From Urbifossiella limnaea (GTDB lineage: Bacteria; Planctomycetota; Planctomycetia; Gemmatales; Gemmataceae), in NCBI RefSeq assembly GCF_007747215.1, contig NZ_CP036273.1, positions 2,464,322-2,528,321 of the forward strand: a stretch of DNA of 64,000 bases, given 5' to 3'. Every line of letters starts with the position of its first letter. Within the stretch, counting starts at the first letter, position 1. Both the position numbers and the translations under genes were made by a program. Below, one piece after another: positions 3,311 to 48,399 of this stretch. The notes below the pieces were generated by a model, which saw only the letters and a program-made list of their open reading frames with translations, was not told where the DNA came from and ran no database searches.

Positions 3311-3354
3311 GCCGCATGCGGCTTGGCGCTGCGCAGCGCCAAGCCGCATGCGGC
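3311..3354. terminator. 44-base perfect palindrome between convergent genes
   Basis: Two 22-base arms are exact reverse complements with no loop (left arm begins GCCGCATGCGGCTTGGCG). It lies 22 bases after the TPR stop and 22 bases before the end of the FKBP gene on the other strand, so it can terminate both. There is no clear T-tract. It may be a dispersed palindromic repeat used as a terminator. Confidence 0.6.
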
Positions 3355-12394: not shown

Positions 12395-13572
12395 CGGGGT
12401 GGGGCTCCGGCGGCCGGCTCACACGCTACTGTAGCACGGGCCGCGAGCCTGCGGCCGAGGAGATCGTCGTACACCGCCGCCAGCTTCCGCATCCGGCCCG
12501 CAAAGCTGAACCGGCCCTCGACCGTCTCGCGGCCCGCGGCGCGGAACCGCTCCCGCAGTGCGGCGTCGCCGAGCAGCCGGCCGAGCGCCGCGGACAGGAC
12601 GGCGGCGTCGCCGCTGTCGACGAGCGTCCCGTTGACGCCGTCCTGCACGAGCCGCGGCACGCCGTTGACGCGCGTCGCCACCACCGGCACCTCCAGGGCC
12701 ATCGCCTCCAGCACGACGTTCGGCAGCCCCTCGCGGAGGCTCGACAGCGCGAACACGTCCATCGCCTCGAAGTACCCGCGCACGTCGGCCTGCCAGCCGG
12801 CCAGCCTCACGCGGTCGGTCAGGCCCAACTCCGCGATCAGTCGCTCGAGAGTGCCCCGCTCGCCCCCCTCGCCGACGATGACGAGCCGCACACCCGGCAG
12901 CGCGGCGACGGCGCGGAGCAGCACGTCGAACGCCTTCTCGCCCGACAGCCGGCCGACGGCGCCGACCAGCGGCGCGGCCGGCGGGAAGCCCAGCGCCAGC
13001 TTCGCCTCCGCGACCGACCGGCGGCGCGCGTAGTCGGCTGCGTCGATGCCGTTGTCCAGCAGCAGCAACCGCTTCTCCGGCACGCCCGCGGCACGGCACG
13101 CTTCCACGAGGTCGGTCGAGACGCACACCACGCGCTCGTACCGTCGCAGGCACCACTTGTCGATGCCGTAATAGAGCGGCGTGCGGCTCGTCTGCTGCAC
13201 CCAGCCGTGGGCCGTCGTCACCAGCCGCATCCGGTGGAAGCGCGTCAGCAGGAGGCCGAGCGCGTTGGTCTTGTAGTCGTGACCGTGCCACACGGTCACC
13301 TTGTGCTCGCGGCACGCCCGCAGAAGCTGCCGCACGGCGCGCCAGTCCCAGAAGCCGCGGTCGGGGATCGACACCAGCGGAGCGTTCGCCTCCGCGGCCT
13401 TCCTGCGAATCACCTCGTAGCCGGGGTCGCCGGGCGGGTGGAGGTAGCCGCACACCATCCGGTAGCCGAGCGGCTCCAGGAAGCGCGGCGAGTTCAGAAT
13501 CGTCTTCTCCGGCCCGCCGCCGGCCCCGGTCACGACCCGGGTGTCGAAGACGACCGGCGCGTCAGCCGTCAT
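12391..13572 (-). CDS. Glycosyltransferase, GT4-like (group 1)
   Basis: The 393-residue product has the two-Rossmann-domain GT-B layout. Landmarks are HGHDYKTNALGLLLTRFH in the N-terminal domain, VGAVGRLSGEKAFDVLLRAV at the start of the donor domain, and the EX7E motif (E281 and E289 in REGLPNVVLEAMALEVPVVA). It would transfer a sugar from a nucleotide donor onto the growing exopolysaccharide lipid intermediate at the inner membrane. Its start overlaps the end of the next glycosyltransferase by 11 bases, and its stop overlaps the FemAB start by 4. Sugar specificity cannot be read from the sequence. Confidence 0.93.
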   Translation of the reverse strand: MTADAPVVFDTRVVTGAGGGPEKTILNSPRFLEPLGYRMVCGYLHPPGDPGYEVIRRKAAEANAPLVSIPDRGFWDWRAVRQLLRACREHKVTVWHGHDYKTNALGLLLTRFHRMRLVTTAHGWVQQTSRTPLYYGIDKWCLRRYERVVCVSTDLVEACRAAGVPEKRLLLLDNGIDAADYARRRSVAEAKLALGFPPAAPLVGAVGRLSGEKAFDVLLRAVAALPGVRLVIVGEGGERGTLERLIAELGLTDRVRLAGWQADVRGYFEAMDVFALSSLREGLPNVVLEAMALEVPVVATRVNGVPRLVQDGVNGTLVDSGDAAVLSAALGRLLGDAALRERFRAAGRETVEGRFSFAGRMRKLAAVYDDLLGRRLAARATVACEPAAGAPPR

Positions 13573-14857
13573 GCGGCACGACCCGCGAGAGGAAGGGGTC
13601 GAGGCACGTCGCCCAGCGGTGATTCGCCTCCACGTAGCGGCGGCCGGCGGCGCCGAGGGCGGTGCCGCGGGCGTGGTCCGTCAGCAGCGTCGAACAAGCG
13701 CCCACCCACTCGGCGGGCGACTCGGCGCGGAGCAGGTGCTCGCCGGGGGTCGTTCCCAGCGCCGCGAGGGCGGGCGGGGCGGCGACCACGGGGCGGGCCA
13801 GCGCCAGCGCTTCGAGCACCTTGTTTTGGATGCCGCGGGCCAACCGCAGCGGCACCACCGCGGCCGCAGCGCCGAGCACGAACGGGCGCACGTCGGGCAC
13901 GGTGCCCACTACCTTCACGCCGGGCAACTCCACTAGCCGCCGCACCTCGGGGGCGGGTGATCGCCCGACGATGCGGAACTCCGCCTCGGGGTGCTTCGCC
14001 CGCAGTTCGGGCCAGACGCTTCGCGCGAACCACACGGCCCCGTCGATGTTCGGCAGGTAGTCCATTGCCCCGACGAACGCCAGCGCCGGCTCGACCGGCA
14101 CGACCCGCGGTGCGAAGTAGTCGAGGTCGACGCCGTTGGACGCGACGGTCGCGGCGCCGGGCGCCGTGAACGAGTCGTACACGTCGGCCTCGGCACGGCT
14201 GACCACCGCCCGCGCCGCGGTCCATGTCGGTAGCGTCCGTTCGAGCTTGCGCACGCGGCGGGCTTCGAGGCGGTAGACCCAGCGCTTCGGGCCGCGGACC
14301 GTCGTCGCGAAGTCAAGCCACTTCTGGCTGTCCACGTCCATCAGGTCCACGAACCGCAGCACACCGGCGAGTGCGTCACCCGCGAGGTACGGCGCCAGGC
14401 TCGACGCCGACACGACGGCCGCGGCGAAGCCCGCTTCCTTCGCCCAGCCGCGGACCACGTCGAACAGCGCCGGCTCGCGGAAGATGCCTTCGGAGATGCT
14501 GCCGCCGCTGAGGACGCTCCAGCCGGCGCGGAGCCACTTGCGCGTCCCGGCCGCGGGCACGATTGCCACGCGCTCGCAAAGCCGGTCCAGCTCGGAGCGC
14601 GTCTCCGCGGAAACGGGCTCGTCCGCGAGACAGCCCAGCCACACGCGCCCCCGGGCGGCGAGGCCGCGCAGCATGTGGTAGTTGCGGATGCGATCGCCCT
14701 TGTCGGGCGGGAACGGGACGCGGTGCGTGAGGTAAAGAACCCGCGGAGCGCGGGACTGACCAATTTCCAATGACCCACCACTGACCAAGGAAGACAGCTG
14801 GGTTCTGTCCTTGGTCAGTGGTGGGTCATTGGTCAACTGGTCATGGGCCGCGGTCAT
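13562..14857 (-). CDS. PEP-CTERM/XrtA-type glycosyltransferase (TIGR03087-like) with a palindrome inserted at its N-terminus
   Basis: The 431-residue product carries VLYLTHRVPFPPDKGDRIRN, the hallmark opening of the TIGR03087 (Stp1-type) exosortase-linked glycosyltransferases. The donor-domain motifs FVGAMDYLPNIDGAVWF and GIQNKVLEALALARPVVAAP follow. The ATG at 14857 overlaps the stop of the sugar transferase (ATGA), which supports it as the ancestral start. Residues of about 6-34 are encoded by an 87-base palindromic element (14757-14843) and look foreign (TNDPPLTKDRTQLSSLVSGG). Removing 29 codons would leave MTAA followed almost at once by PRVLYLTHR. Function: sugar addition in exopolysaccharide synthesis. 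Confidence 0.9.
   Translation of the reverse strand: MTAAHDQLTNDPPLTKDRTQLSSLVSGGSLEIGQSRAPRVLYLTHRVPFPPDKGDRIRNYHMLRGLAARGRVWLGCLADEPVSAETRSELDRLCERVAIVPAAGTRKWLRAGWSVLSGGSISEGIFREPALFDVVRGWAKEAGFAAAVVSASSLAPYLAGDALAGVLRFVDLMDVDSQKWLDFATTVRGPKRWVYRLEARRVRKLERTLPTWTAARAVVSRAEADVYDSFTAPGAATVASNGVDLDYFAPRVVPVEPALAFVGAMDYLPNIDGAVWFARSVWPELRAKHPEAEFRIVGRSPAPEVRRLVELPGVKVVGTVPDVRPFVLGAAAAVVPLRLARGIQNKVLEALALARPVVAAPPALAALGTTPGEHLLRAESPAEWVGACSTLLTDHARGTALGAAGRRYVEANHRWATCLDPFLSRVVPHDG
14757..14843. repeat. Palindromic element inside the glycosyltransferase 5' end
   Basis: Core arms 14767-14791 and 14808-14832 are 25-base exact reverse complements (left begins CCAATGACCCACCACTGACC) with a 16-base loop. 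Weaker TGACCA-type similarity extends the arms to about 14757 and 14843. It is built of reiterated TGACCA/TGGTCA units and is less GC-rich than its surroundings. The stretch is about 87 bases (29 codons) and keeps the host gene in frame. Confidence 0.75.
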
Positions 14858-15645
14858 GCCGGCAGCGGCGGCGTGAGGACGGCGGAGTGGACGACGCGGC
14901 CGAACTCGGCGGCCACGGCGTCGCGGCCGGGCAGCAGGAACGAGACGCGGATCAGCCGCGGGTTCAGGCCGGCCGCCTTCAGGCCCGTCGCCAGCACCAG
15001 CCGCAGGTCCAGCCACAAGCCCTGCTGGCGAACGTAGTACACGTCGTAGGCCACCTTGTGCCGTACGCCGGTGATGTCGCTGTCGGCCGGCAACTGCACC
15101 TGGGCCAGCCCCGTCACTCCCGGCTTCACCAGTAGTCGGGCCGAGTAGCCGGGGACGAGACGCTCCAGCCCCTTCGACTCGATCACCTCCGGGCGTTCCG
15201 GCCGCGGGCCGACCAGGCTCATCTGCCCGAGCAGCACGTTGAACAGCTGCGGCAGCTCGTCGACGTGCGTGCGGCGGAGCCACTTCCCGACGCGGAACAC
15301 GCGGTCGTCGTCCTTGCCGGCCCACTTGATGCCGGACTTCAGCTCGACGTTGTGGTGCATCGTCCGCAGCTTCACGATGCGGTACCGGCGGCCGCGCAAG
15401 CCGAGGCGAGTTTGGGTGTAGAACACGGGGCCCGGCGAGGACAGCTTCACTGCGACGGCCGCGACGCAGATGAGAAGCAGGGCCGGGGCGAGCGCCGCGA
15501 GGGCGACTGCGTAGTCGAACACGACCTTGCCGGCGTTGTACCACGTCGGGCACAGCGCCACGCTCACGCCGATGTCACCGGCGAGGCGGTCGATCTCCGG
15601 CCACGGGTCGCGGGCGGTGGGCGGTGGTGTGGGCGTTACACTCAT
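14854..15645 (-). CDS. Undecaprenyl-phosphate sugar phosphotransferase (initiating transferase)
   Basis: The 263-residue product is a minimal bacterial sugar transferase with one hydrophobic hairpin (about residues 42-68). The conserved blocks are SSPGPVFYTQTRLGLRGR, YRIVKLRTM, LRRTHVDELPQLFNVLLGQM and SLVGPRPE. It would move a sugar-1-phosphate from a nucleotide sugar to undecaprenyl phosphate, the first step of exopolysaccharide assembly. It lacks the N-terminal four-helix CoA-binding-like domain of WcaJ/WbaP, so it is PglC/ExoY-sized. It lies between epsI and the TIGR03087-like glycosyltransferase. Confidence 0.93.
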   Translation of the reverse strand: MSVTPTPPPTARDPWPEIDRLAGDIGVSVALCPTWYNAGKVVFDYAVALAALAPALLLICVAAVAVKLSSPGPVFYTQTRLGLRGRRYRIVKLRTMHHNVELKSGIKWAGKDDDRVFRVGKWLRRTHVDELPQLFNVLLGQMSLVGPRPERPEVIESKGLERLVPGYSARLLVKPGVTGLAQVQLPADSDITGVRHKVAYDVYYVRQQGLWLDLRLVLATGLKAAGLNPRLIRVSFLLPGRDAVAAEFGRVVHSAVLTPPLPA

Positions 15646-15696
15646 GGGCGTCCGTGAAGGCCGTGGCTCGGGGAGAGTAGAGCCTGGGGGTTTGCG

Positions 15697-16374
15697 TTAG
15701 CCGGGGCCCAGCGCCGTGCGCAGGACCGGCAGGAACTCGGTCAGCAACTCGTGGACCGGGTCGCCGGTCTGGGCGGTGCCGGCGGCGGCGAGGCTGCGGG
15801 TCGCGTAAATCTTGTAGAGGTACGCGTGGCCGGTGAAGTCCAGGCGTGGGGTGGCTGCCGCGTGCCAGGTGCCGTCGGCGCCCCAGGCCCAGTTCACCTC
15901 CAGGCCCGGGTCCGCGTCCCCCTTGTCGAACCGCGCCGTCCAGTACGTCGCGTCACCGAGCGTCTTCTTGACTTCCCCGCCCTGCATCTTGTAACCGAGG
16001 CCGGCGTAGCACACGTCGGGCGTGTGCGAGGCGATCGGCCCGGTCGGCCCGCACAGCACCATCACTGTGACGCTCGAGCCCGACTTCTGGTTCCGATAAA
16101 CCCGAGACACCGAACCGACGGCCTCGGCCCGCTCCAGGATTTTGCGGTCGACCGGAACTTCGACACTCGTCCAGTCGCCGAACGCCGGCGGGACGCGGTC
16201 CAGGCGGGCGGCGGCGGCCTTCAGGTCTTCGGGCACGCCCCAGCGGTTGGAGAGCACCCCCTCGAACACGGCCGCGGCGACCAGCCCGCCGAGGACGATC
16301 ACCACCAGCACGCCCGCAGCGCCGCGCGACAGCGGCGGCGACGAGACGGGTCGTGATGACGGGCGCCGAGGCAT
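15697..16374 (-). CDS. epsI: EpsI-family exosortase-associated protein
   Basis: The 225-residue product has one N-terminal membrane anchor (about residues 20-40), then an EpsI (DUF3485) domain with the signature HTPDVCYAGLGY (H117, C122). FGDWTSVEVPV and VNWAWGADGTWHAA are also family-like. In other bacteria EpsI is a separate gene next to, or fused to, the exosortase XrtA/XrtB, and is needed for exopolysaccharide or PEP-CTERM processing; its exact role is unsettled. No exosortase gene is present beside it here. It is in the operon between the BY-kinase and the initiating sugar transferase. Confidence 0.9.
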   Translation of the reverse strand: MPRRPSSRPVSSPPLSRGAAGVLVVIVLGGLVAAAVFEGVLSNRWGVPEDLKAAAARLDRVPPAFGDWTSVEVPVDRKILERAEAVGSVSRVYRNQKSGSSVTVMVLCGPTGPIASHTPDVCYAGLGYKMQGGEVKKTLGDATYWTARFDKGDADPGLEVNWAWGADGTWHAAATPRLDFTGHAYLYKIYATRSLAAAGTAQTGDPVHELLTEFLPVLRTALGPG

Positions 16375-29913: not shown

Positions 29914-29965
29914 TTCGCCGCTTGCGGCGTAGCGGCGTTTGCGCCGCTACGCCGCAAGCGGCGAA
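29914..29965. terminator. 24-bp perfect-stem bidirectional terminator
   Basis: Arms 29914-29937 and 29942-29965 are exact reverse complements (left begins TTCGCCGCTTGCGGCGTAGC) around TTTG. It lies between the convergent M61 peptidase and glycoside-hydrolase-like genes, 2 and 5 bases from their stops. The arm itself contains a smaller inverted unit (CGCCGCTTGCGGCG). Confidence 0.8.
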
Positions 29966-39082: not shown

Positions 39083-39555
39083 TGCACCCACTACCGCTTC
39101 TCCGCCGGCGCGAGATCGAGGCGGGCGTGATCGCCCCGCTGGTCGCGGTGTTCGCCGCCGAGGTCGGGGCCGACCGCGCCCGCGAAATCGCCGCCGGCGT
39201 CATCAAAGAGCTGGCCCGTCAGGGCGGCTGTGCCGCGGCCGCGGTCCTTGGCGGCAACGGCCTCCGCGAACTGAAACGCGCCGTCGAGCGGTGGACCGAC
39301 GACGACGCGCTCGAACTCGTCGTGCGGCGCGACGACGCGGAGGCGTTCGAGTTCGACGTGGTGCGCTGCCGGTACGCCGAGATGTACCGCCGGCTCGGGC
39401 TCGCCGACCTGGGGCCGGTGCTGTCGTGCAACCGCGACGCGGCGATGATCGAGGGCTTCAACCCCGCCATCGCCTTCACCCGCACGCAGACGCTGATGGA
39501 AGGCGCGACGCACTGCGACTTCCGTTATCGATCGGGAAGTCAGACGCAGGATTAA
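39079..39555 (+). CDS. L-2-amino-thiazoline-4-carboxylic-acid hydrolase-like protein
   Basis: The 158-residue product resembles the ATC hydrolase family, which opens the thiazoline ring in cysteine formation. Landmarks are FEFDVVRCRYAEMYRRLGL, VLSCNRDAAMIEGFNPAI and TLMEGATHCDFRYR, with the conserved Cys and His/Asp at the usual C-terminal sites. Its start overlaps the HNH gene by 4 bases. The last two codons (Gln-Asp) and the TAA stop lie inside the inverted-repeat element at 39546, so the original C-terminus may have been longer or shorter. Confidence 0.85.
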   Translation: MMHPLPLLRRREIEAGVIAPLVAVFAAEVGADRAREIAAGVIKELARQGGCAAAAVLGGNGLRELKRAVERWTDDDALELVVRRDDAEAFEFDVVRCRYAEMYRRLGLADLGPVLSCNRDAAMIEGFNPAIAFTRTQTLMEGATHCDFRYRSGSQTQD

Positions 39556-39686
39556 CCACAGAGTCACAGAGAGCACAGAGGAAAGACAAAAAGCAGAGTG
39601 GTGACAAAGTCTGGTTTCAGACTCTGCTCCGTCTCGGTCTTCTCGTCTTCCCTCTGTGCTCTCTGTGACTCTGTGGTTAATCCTGC
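39546..39686. repeat. 141-base element with 36-base perfect terminal inverted repeats
   Basis: Arms 39546-39581 (begins GCAGGATTAACCACAGAGTC) and 39651-39686 are exact reverse complements. The internal part holds AGTCTG/CAGACT (39609-39614, 39619-39624) and GCAGAGT/ACTCTGC pairs, so the whole folds as one long hairpin. The AACCACAGAG core matches a repeat type I know from many bacterial genomes. There is no transposase. It supplies the stop codon of the upstream gene and can end both convergent transcripts. It is AT-richer than the flanks. Confidence 0.85.
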
Positions 39687-39702
39687 TTTCGTTCTCCCGC
39701 CA

Positions 39703-46509: not shown

Positions 46510-48399
46510 TCACGGCTCGTTGGTCACGACCAGCACGTCGCAGTTGCGGTAGAAGTCGAACCGGCGGGCAACGACCCGATGCGGCGCGGTCGTCAGCGGC
46601 CGCACCCACTGTGTCCAGGTCGGCTCGGGGATGAGCAGGTAGCCGGGCGTCGGCACGGCGAGAAAGTCGGCGGCGGCGTGCGGGCCGGGCAGCTTCGACA
46701 CCTCACGCTTGGCGTAAAAGACCACGCTCGGCTGGAACCAGTCGTACCCGCCGACGCGGAGGTCGCGGGTCGGGTCGTCGAGGCGGGCGTCGGCGACGAG
46801 GCCGCGCGGCGCCTTGTACGGATCCATGCCGGCGGGGACCACCGCCGCCACACCCGCCACGAATGCGACGGACGAAGCCGCCATCGCAACCAGGAACCCG
46901 TGCCGGTCGCCGAGCCGCAGGCGCCACGCCATCGCGGCGGCGCCGACCAGCGGAATCAGTCCGAGGACCGCCCACCGCTCCAGTCCGGGGAACGTCCGCA
47001 GCTTCGGGACTGGGATCGTCCCGGCGACGACGAGCAGCCCCGCGGCGAACAGGACGCCGACAAGCGCGACGCCGACGACGGCGGCGAAGACGAGCCAGCG
47101 CGGCACGGCGAGGCCGTCGCGCCAGCGGACGAGGAAGCGGGCGGTGAGGATCGCCAGGGCCGGGTACAGCGGCAGGACGTAGTTCGGCAGCTTCGTCGAG
47201 ACGAGCGAGAAGACGGTGAGGTACGAGAGGAACCAGCAGAGCAGGTAACGATTAGCGCGGTCGCCCGGCGGTTGGCTGCCGTCGTGCGTGGTTACCCCCC
47301 TCACCCCGCGTGCTTCGCCGCGACCCTCTCCCCCGAGGGGAGAGGGTGGCGAGACACCATCCGTTTCGGGTCGTGGTGTGCGGTGCAATGCCCGCCCGTG
47401 ATGAGGGTCGGGAGCGCCCACCCTCTCCCCTCGGGGGAGAGGGTCGCGGCGAAGCACGCGGGGTGAGGGGGTTAACCACGCGCGACGAAGTCCTGGAACT
47501 GCGTTCCACACGCGAACCACGAACGCCGGCACCCGCGCTTCGGCCGCCGCGTACCACAGCGTCGCACACAGGACGACGCTCCACGGCGCGAACAACACCA
47601 GCAGCGCCGCCGCGTGGTAGAAGATCGGCCCGCTGTGGTTCTCCATCGGCGTCAGCGCCCGGTTCACGTTCTCGTTCAGGAAGAACGCCTTCGGCCACGC
47701 CCCGCGCGTCTCCGCCGCCACCAGCCCGTACCACGGCCCCGCCACCAGCAGGAACGTCAGCAGCGCCCACCCGAGCCGCCGGTCCAGCAACCGCCGTAAC
47801 TCGCCGTTCCACGCGAAGTACAGGAGGAACACCAGCCCCGGCACCGCCACGCCGACCGGGCCTTTCGACAAGGCCGCCAGCCCGCACGCGGCGGCCGTCG
47901 GCACCCACCAGCCGCGGCCGCCGGCCTCGTGGCCGACCCAGAACATCAGGTACGTCAGCACCGTGAACAGCAGCAGCGTGGCGTCCGGCGTGGCGGCGTG
48001 GGCCAGCACGCAAAACTCGATCGCCGACGCGAGCACGATTCCGGCCAGCAGGCCGGTGCCGCGGCCGAACATGCGCCGGGCCAGTTCGTAGGTGAGGAGG
48101 ATCGTGAGCCAGCCGCACAGCACCGACGGCAGCCGCGCCGAGAACTCGCTGACACCGCACGCCGCGTAGCTGAGGCGCAGCAGCCAGTACTGCATCACCG
48201 GCTTCTGCGTCCGCAGCTCGAAGTTGAACGTCGGCACGACCCACGAGTCGGCCTCACGCATCTCGCGGCCGGCCTCGGCGTTCACGCCCTCGTCCACGTC
48301 CCACAGGCTCGACACGCCGAGGTTCGGCAGCGTCAGCACCGCGGCGGCGCACAGCAGTACGGCGTAGTCGGCGGCCCGGGTTCGGAACCAGCCCGGCAT
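46510..48399 (-). CDS. ArnT-like glycosyltransferase (GT83/GT39-type) with an in-frame palindromic insertion
   Basis: The 629-residue product is a polytopic lipid-linked-sugar transferase. The family active-site loop is present near the N-terminus (LWDVDEGVNAEAGREMREAD), then many helices, and the end is soluble (LLIPEPTWTQWVRPLTTAPH). It would add a sugar, such as aminoarabinose in ArnT, to lipid A or another envelope lipid. About residues 304-372 (LTPSPRVLRRDPLPRGERVG up to GVSPPSPLGGEGRGEARGVR) are encoded by a palindromic repeat and have no place in the family; flanking membrane blocks join naturally when it is removed. Whether the protein still works is uncertain. Confidence 0.88.
   Translation of the reverse strand: MPGWFRTRAADYAVLLCAAAVLTLPNLGVSSLWDVDEGVNAEAGREMREADSWVVPTFNFELRTQKPVMQYWLLRLSYAACGVSEFSARLPSVLCGWLTILLTYELARRMFGRGTGLLAGIVLASAIEFCVLAHAATPDATLLLFTVLTYLMFWVGHEAGGRGWWVPTAAACGLAALSKGPVGVAVPGLVFLLYFAWNGELRRLLDRRLGWALLTFLLVAGPWYGLVAAETRGAWPKAFFLNENVNRALTPMENHSGPIFYHAAALLVLFAPWSVVLCATLWYAAAEARVPAFVVRVWNAVPGLRRAWLTPSPRVLRRDPLPRGERVGAPDPHHGRALHRTPRPETDGVSPPSPLGGEGRGEARGVRGVTTHDGSQPPGDRANRYLLCWFLSYLTVFSLVSTKLPNYVLPLYPALAILTARFLVRWRDGLAVPRWLVFAAVVGVALVGVLFAAGLLVVAGTIPVPKLRTFPGLERWAVLGLIPLVGAAAMAWRLRLGDRHGFLVAMAASSVAFVAGVAAVVPAGMDPYKAPRGLVADARLDDPTRDLRVGGYDWFQPSVVFYAKREVSKLPGPHAAADFLAVPTPGYLLIPEPTWTQWVRPLTTAPHRVVARRFDFYRNCDVLVVTNEP
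47283..47487. repeat. About 205-base palindromic repeat inside the ArnT-like gene
   Basis: Arms of about 66 bases (about 47283-47348 and 47421-47487) are reverse complements with about three mismatches. Each arm carries CCCTCACCCCGCGTGC and its own small hairpin CCCTCTCCCC/GGGGAGAGGG. The CCCTCTCCCC-type repeat is common between genes in several phyla (general knowledge). Here it lies inside a coding region and the reading frame stays open through it. Exact ends are uncertain by a few bases. Confidence 0.85.

Follow-up and report, generated by a model that had tools for sequence, protein, structure and literature searches.

The closest described systems are the GTAG and CGTC REPs, which, in the available extracts of their description (PMC3733652), are dispersed palindromes of 20–40 bp located mostly between tandem or convergent genes, downstream of coding regions. 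Neighboring genes often take their stop codon from the ends of these REPs, which lie inside genes in a minority of cases and bear an unpaired GTAG or CGTC tetranucleotide at one end; GTAG REPs flank a RAYT/Y1_Tnp gene, while CGTC repeats are presented in the same extracts without one (PMC3733652). For the Rickettsia palindromic elements, an excerpt of the review PMC10969869 indicates that nearly half of the copies are found inside genes. As to the effects of such structures, Liang et al. (2015), as cited in a passage of PMC12306157, reported that REP hairpins located at no more than 15 nt from a stop codon stall ribosomes, and a part of PMC7518266 describes the ribosome termination structure, a stable mRNA structure placed right after the stop and expected to cut re-initiation in operons.

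The element considered here lies in a stretch of 64,000 nucleotides of the Urbifossiella limnaea genome (the window), where a palindrome spanning positions 14757 to 14843 is found within the gene for a TIGR03087-family XrtA/PEP-CTERM glycosyltransferase of 431 residues (13562–14857, minus strand). The initial annotation had described a palindrome placed between an ATG that overlaps the upstream stop and the conserved opening of this protein, keeping the frame and encoding about residues 6–34, and all of this was confirmed, the residue limits being correct within one residue. The left (14767–14791) and right (14808–14832) inner arms are 25 nt each, 100% complementary, and separated by a 16-nt loop (14792–14807) whose sequence is highly variable among copies; neither the element nor its parts are assigned to a strand. 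Minus-strand RNA from 14730 to 14870 was computed to fold at −83.8 kcal/mol (z −9.4), with none of 200 shuffles folding equally well. The ATG (14855–14857, minus strand) overlaps the TGA of a bacterial sugar transferase gene (PF02397; 14854–15645, minus strand), whose 3′ end is occupied by the element and whose stop precedes the element edge by 10 nt. The TIGR03087 match covers residues 40–422 of the glycosyltransferase (452 bits, versus a cut-off of 317), and the element sits between the ATG at 14857 and the conserved VLYLTHRVPFPPDKG opening; the product read from this ATG would include the N-terminal sequence MTAAHDQLTNDPPLTK. Just past the element on the glycosyltransferase strand, at 14740–14754, there is a small GC hairpin of 6 bp followed by TTCTTT, and this hairpin (14754–14740) is the sole terminator-like site found by a terminator scan of 14650–15700.

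The closest orthologue is located at L052 in a genome of the same genus (G001), with 304 of 392 aligned residues (78%) identical from residue 40 on. At L052, too, the upstream gene is the same and its stop forms an ATGA overlap with the start, but the palindrome is lacking, and the protein begins with MTTLPRVLYLTHR; the element is therefore an in-frame insertion relative to L052. The expectation that exactly 29 codons would be missing from an orthologue was not borne out, for the N-terminal tail of L052 is 33 codons shorter than that of the window protein. This net difference, 4 codons larger than the element accounts for, counts against the explanation preferred below; the four extra codons belong to a tail that is variable anyway. 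Indeed, the tails at L053 and L054 are unrelated, and the N-terminal tail of the glycosyltransferase is not conserved. Hence, the observation that would have told against the initial annotation, namely orthologues sharing the same N-terminal residues, was not made. The differences between the window gene and L052 number 60, 61 and 163 at the three codon positions, which indicates protein-level constraint on the two genes taken together and is silent on the period after the insertion.

The palindrome is one member of a dispersed family, of which the window copy represents the TGACCA...TGGTCA core. The initial annotation had proposed counting its genomic copies, and a search with the 87-base query yielded 65 alignments, both strands counted, merged by hand into about 35 separate places, with the window copy alone lying within coding sequence. 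The full form of the family is about 91 bp long and consists of a 39-pair stem and a variable loop. In an alignment of 24 full copies, the paired ends are GAATGACC and GGTCATTC, 94.7% of the stem cells are paired, and 16 of the 39 pairs have changed on both sides, a figure reached by none of 500 shuffles. Likewise, among 25 copies, the arms are more similar within a copy (mean 0.93) than between copies (0.85). This likeness and the covariation fit selection for the hairpin, and they also fit a process in which one arm is copied from its partner. Among 41 genomes searched, the family was present in its own genome and in four of five other members of the genus, and in none of 35 genomes outside it. 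A scan of a species-genome collection with the core pattern retrieved 102 stretches, and all of the 80 listed belonged to MAGs of Planctomycetota or to an unnamed bacterium isolate (SCN18), with one of them labelled Fimbriiglobus and another Singulisphaera. Rfam gave only weak matches, far under the gathering scores and mainly to microRNA precursor models, and no published description of these elements was found in a search that reached a minority of the subscription papers. In a relative (L236), the L030 gene has an orthologue that is likewise followed by a family copy, though its distance from the stop differs slightly, a situation for which either common ancestry or a second insertion would account.

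The family follows a rule of placement at gene 3′ ends, which the window copy respects at the end of the sugar transferase gene. Gene contexts were taken from a custom gene finder, crude enough to misplace the start of the glycosyltransferase to 14674, within the conserved part, and according to its predictions the 35 own copies comprise 14 in convergent, 17 in tandem and 4 in divergent arrangements, with none inside a predicted gene. A stop was found inside the element or within 15 nt of its edge on 38 of 45 stop-facing sides, and on 15 of the 45 the gene ends at a stop within the element (12 right at the edge and 3 lying 17 nt inside), the nearest stop being at 25 nt or less for 28 of 31 stop-facing copies. 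Start-facing distances exceed the stop-facing ones, and for tandem copies the upstream stop is closer than the downstream start in 14 of 17 own cases and in 74 of 84 cases from other genomes, the latter including a few copies that were called twice (e.g., at L106). Where the spare gap measures 60–400 nt, 39 of 43 copies (with the same few double calls included) lie at 25 nt or less from a stop, against 11.4 expected if they were uniformly distributed. In five genes that use a TGA of the element as their stop, most of the proteins end within a few residues of their relatives; for the gene at L040, with an element TGA as its stop, the protein ends of the relatives are more variable. Were it not for the next gene starting at the sugar-transferase stop, the window copy would lie in no reading frame.

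With regard to reading frames, the family consensus carries stops in all six, and only 27 of the 180 frames in 30 copies are open, compared with 73% for 91-mers drawn at random from the loci and 25% for shuffles. Palindromes rebuilt from shuffled arms keep about one third of their frames open and are closed in all six in 17–23% of cases, and on the basis of this frequency an all-frame stop design was rejected as significant and stays as a lead. In the window copy, exactly one of the six frames is open, and it is the frame used by the glycosyltransferase; its length (87 nt) is divisible by three, as happens in just 4 of 30 copies. When frames were traced outwards, in three of 29 sufficiently long own copies an open frame continued on one side into a coding-like stretch, corresponding to the glycosyltransferase for the window copy and to the region ahead of a gene start for L033 and L047; seven similar matches were found among 107 copies in relatives, on L088, L117, L125, L126 and L132. 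Altogether, just one of the 35 family places, that of the window, belongs to the reading frame of a gene.

A further palindrome of 208 nt (47280–47487), unrelated in sequence to the TGACCA family and found as well in four of five genus relatives, lies within an ArnT-like gene (46510–48399, minus strand) that matches PRK13279 with an E value of 1e-42 and 146 bits, under the model cut-off of 567. Among 21 genome places examined for this second family, 47280–47487 is the only one inside a predicted gene. From the two cases, the initial annotation had argued for selection for frame-preserving insertions. Two unrelated palindromes do lie inside genes; the inference of selection is not supported, in view of the single intragenic place in each family, the closed consensus and the scarcity of open frames. 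Since both families lie mostly outside genes, the window and ArnT cases look like tolerated exceptions, and these fit the removal of damaging insertions rather than a frame-preserving drive.

These observations can probably be integrated by assuming that the element is a dispersed, REP-like palindrome of gene 3′ ends that became established behind the sugar-transferase stop and is read in frame by virtue of the gene overlap. Briefly, a copy would have settled 10 nt behind this stop, where the ATGA overlap makes the 3′ end of the sugar-transferase gene double as the N-terminal leader of the glycosyltransferase. The insertion would have been tolerated because the tail before VLYLTHR is unconserved, the copy measures 87 nt and its sole open frame is the one in use. 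The RNA hairpin would then be located where the terminating ribosome stands, probably lowering the efficiency of termination and re-initiation and so the output of glycosyltransferase, as the accounts of stop-proximal REPs (PMC12306157) and of ribosome termination structures (PMC7518266) would lead one to expect, and the protein would gain a presumably dispensable tail of 29–30 residues. Counter to this explanation, the four own copies in divergent arrangement lie between gene starts, and the role as a 3′-end hairpin is one that we infer. Under the preferred explanation, the apparent selection for in-frame insertion gives way to a simpler rule, that of 3′-end placement, with intragenic copies only at gene overlaps.

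Several other explanations must be weighed against the 3′-end reading. The palindrome might be protein-coding in the manner of the Rickettsia palindromic elements, that is, adapted to in-frame gene entry and yielding tolerated peptide inserts, as the open frame and length of the window copy and the single ArnT-like case of the second family would suggest. This possibility is very remote and already largely refuted by the rarity of coding-sequence places, the consensus closed in six frames and the few lengths divisible by three. A different question is where translation begins, as the initial annotation had recognized that a start downstream of the palindrome would undo its proposal. No ATG, GTG or TTG exists between the element and the conserved opening, and to that extent the proposal stood; ahead of that opening, the ATG has in-frame rivals only in TTG, CTG and ATT codons located within the element. 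The most downstream possible TTG start (14768–14770, minus strand), in the distal arm, would leave a tail of 10 residues before VLYLTHR, near the 6 of L052, with the element supplying the start and serving for the most part as untranslated leader. We regard this as rather improbable, given that L052 shares the ATGA overlap, ATG included, and that the TTG at 14770 falls within the stem of a very stable hairpin.

The placement itself could be neutral if copies inserted at random and purifying selection cleared them from genes and promoter regions, with 3′ ends remaining. The absence of copies from genes and the longer start-facing distances agree with this account, and removal from regulatory DNA could explain part of the hugging of stops; however, copies with ample gaps still hug the stop well beyond the uniform expectation, and the stem arms covary, so that neutrality may be considered possible but less than an even prospect. 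An unlikely view takes the palindromes as transcription terminators, one family replacing another at a given gene end in the course of evolution. In its favor, long inverted repeats (arms of at least 14, one mismatch being allowed, no farther off than about 110 nt) accompany 38 of 181 element-free stops (21%), compared with 17 of 190 positions ahead of starts and, as mid-gene controls, 3 of 238. In other genomes they accompany 61 of 253 stops and 3 of 376 controls. In these stop tallies convergent pairs may count a single hairpin twice. Some orthologous gene ends bear unrelated palindromes, two of which include the stop codon. Against it, the consensus ends ...TTGGTCATTC with no T run directly after the stem, at the hairpin foot, unlike an intrinsic terminator, and long hairpins occur in 10 of 33 orthologues of six element-bearing genes, against a background of 61 of 253 (p 0.28). 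Interchange of hairpin families at orthologous ends was consequently rejected, after a promising 8/18 (p 0.088) for three genes; for the sixth gene, only the close orthologue L243 was used of L243–L249, the others being distant, and locus L222 was left out as too short. It is doubtful, finally, that the palindromes are mobile gene-end cassettes whose TGA-bearing 7–8-bp units would give a stop in every frame of both strands with a very stable hairpin behind, several unrelated planctomycete-group families having converged on this design; if they were, a single element could end two convergent genes at once.

Other gene-end palindromes were observed. A perfect 24-bp palindrome with a 4-nt loop (29914–29965) fills a convergent gap at 2 and 5 nt from the predicted gene ends, and long palindromes lie between convergent genes at 3311–3354 and 39533–39699, the latter bearing the motif CCACAGAGTCACAGAG. 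Unrelated gene-end palindromes closed in six frames were found at L024 (stops 1243 and 5548), L019 (2380) and L030 (848), with arms made of tandem 7- or 8-bp units containing a TGA in each, and the L030 palindrome has the same sequence as that of L024 at 5548. The minus-strand gene of L042 has orthologues in two relatives (L213 and L214) whose final residues, EAAR, and TGA are provided by an unrelated palindrome.

The mobility of the element is inferred from its dispersal and one empty site. Flanking direct repeats, of the sort that a target-site duplication would leave, are not in excess among 25 copies (p 0.16), and insertion into a pre-existing hairpin was rejected, the outer flanks being no more complementary than permuted ones (p 0.12). 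The own genome has three Y1_Tnp loci of 3.2–3.3 kb, and mobilization by a Y1_Tnp/RAYT gene of this genome was discarded, as the core was found in none of them. Neither a target-site duplication nor, in this genome, a palindrome-flanked transposase was detected, and this counts against the preferred explanation. At L081 (1400–2100), a Y1_Tnp-type transposase gene adjoins a cluster of a different REP-like palindrome, of the CAGGCTGAAGGCCTG type.

Comparison with the systems described above can now be made, within the extracts cited. Like enterobacterial RU-1/ERIC and other MITEs, the family consists of short repeats scattered over the genome, able to become fused to the ends of genes and to provide their stops, and it differs from them in that neither a target-site duplication nor a parental insertion sequence was found, the latter among the Y1_Tnp genes of the own genome (extract of PMC2759123). 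With the Rickettsia palindromic elements it shares an in-frame palindrome within a functional gene, and it departs from them in its intragenic frequency (1/35) and in a consensus with stops in all frames (PMC10969869, in the excerpt cited). Its position relative to the stop codon is that of the stop-proximal REP hairpins, although it is planctomycete and has a longer stem (PMC12306157, same passage). A stable structure directly past the stop is also what defines the ribosome termination structure, which is a general feature of many genes, whereas the window element belongs to a repeat family (PMC7518266, in the part cited). The closest likeness is to the GTAG and CGTC REPs as portrayed in the extracts of PMC3733652: a multi-copy palindrome, mainly outside and downstream of genes, that supplies stops. 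In contrast to their 20–40 bp, the full form measures about 91 bp with a 39-pair stem; its ends, GAATGACCA...TGGTCATTC, are fully paired and carry no GTAG or CGTC tetranucleotide tag, and, in the own genome, the only one tested, no RAYT gene is flanked by the family, as opposed to GTAG REPs (PMC3733652). It behaves as a REP and fails the defining features of both classes, and for this reason it is called REP-like. The best reading is that of a long REP-like family, new and neither a GTAG nor a CGTC REP, which adds an untagged member in a planctomycete group, where 3′-end hairpins merit experiment.
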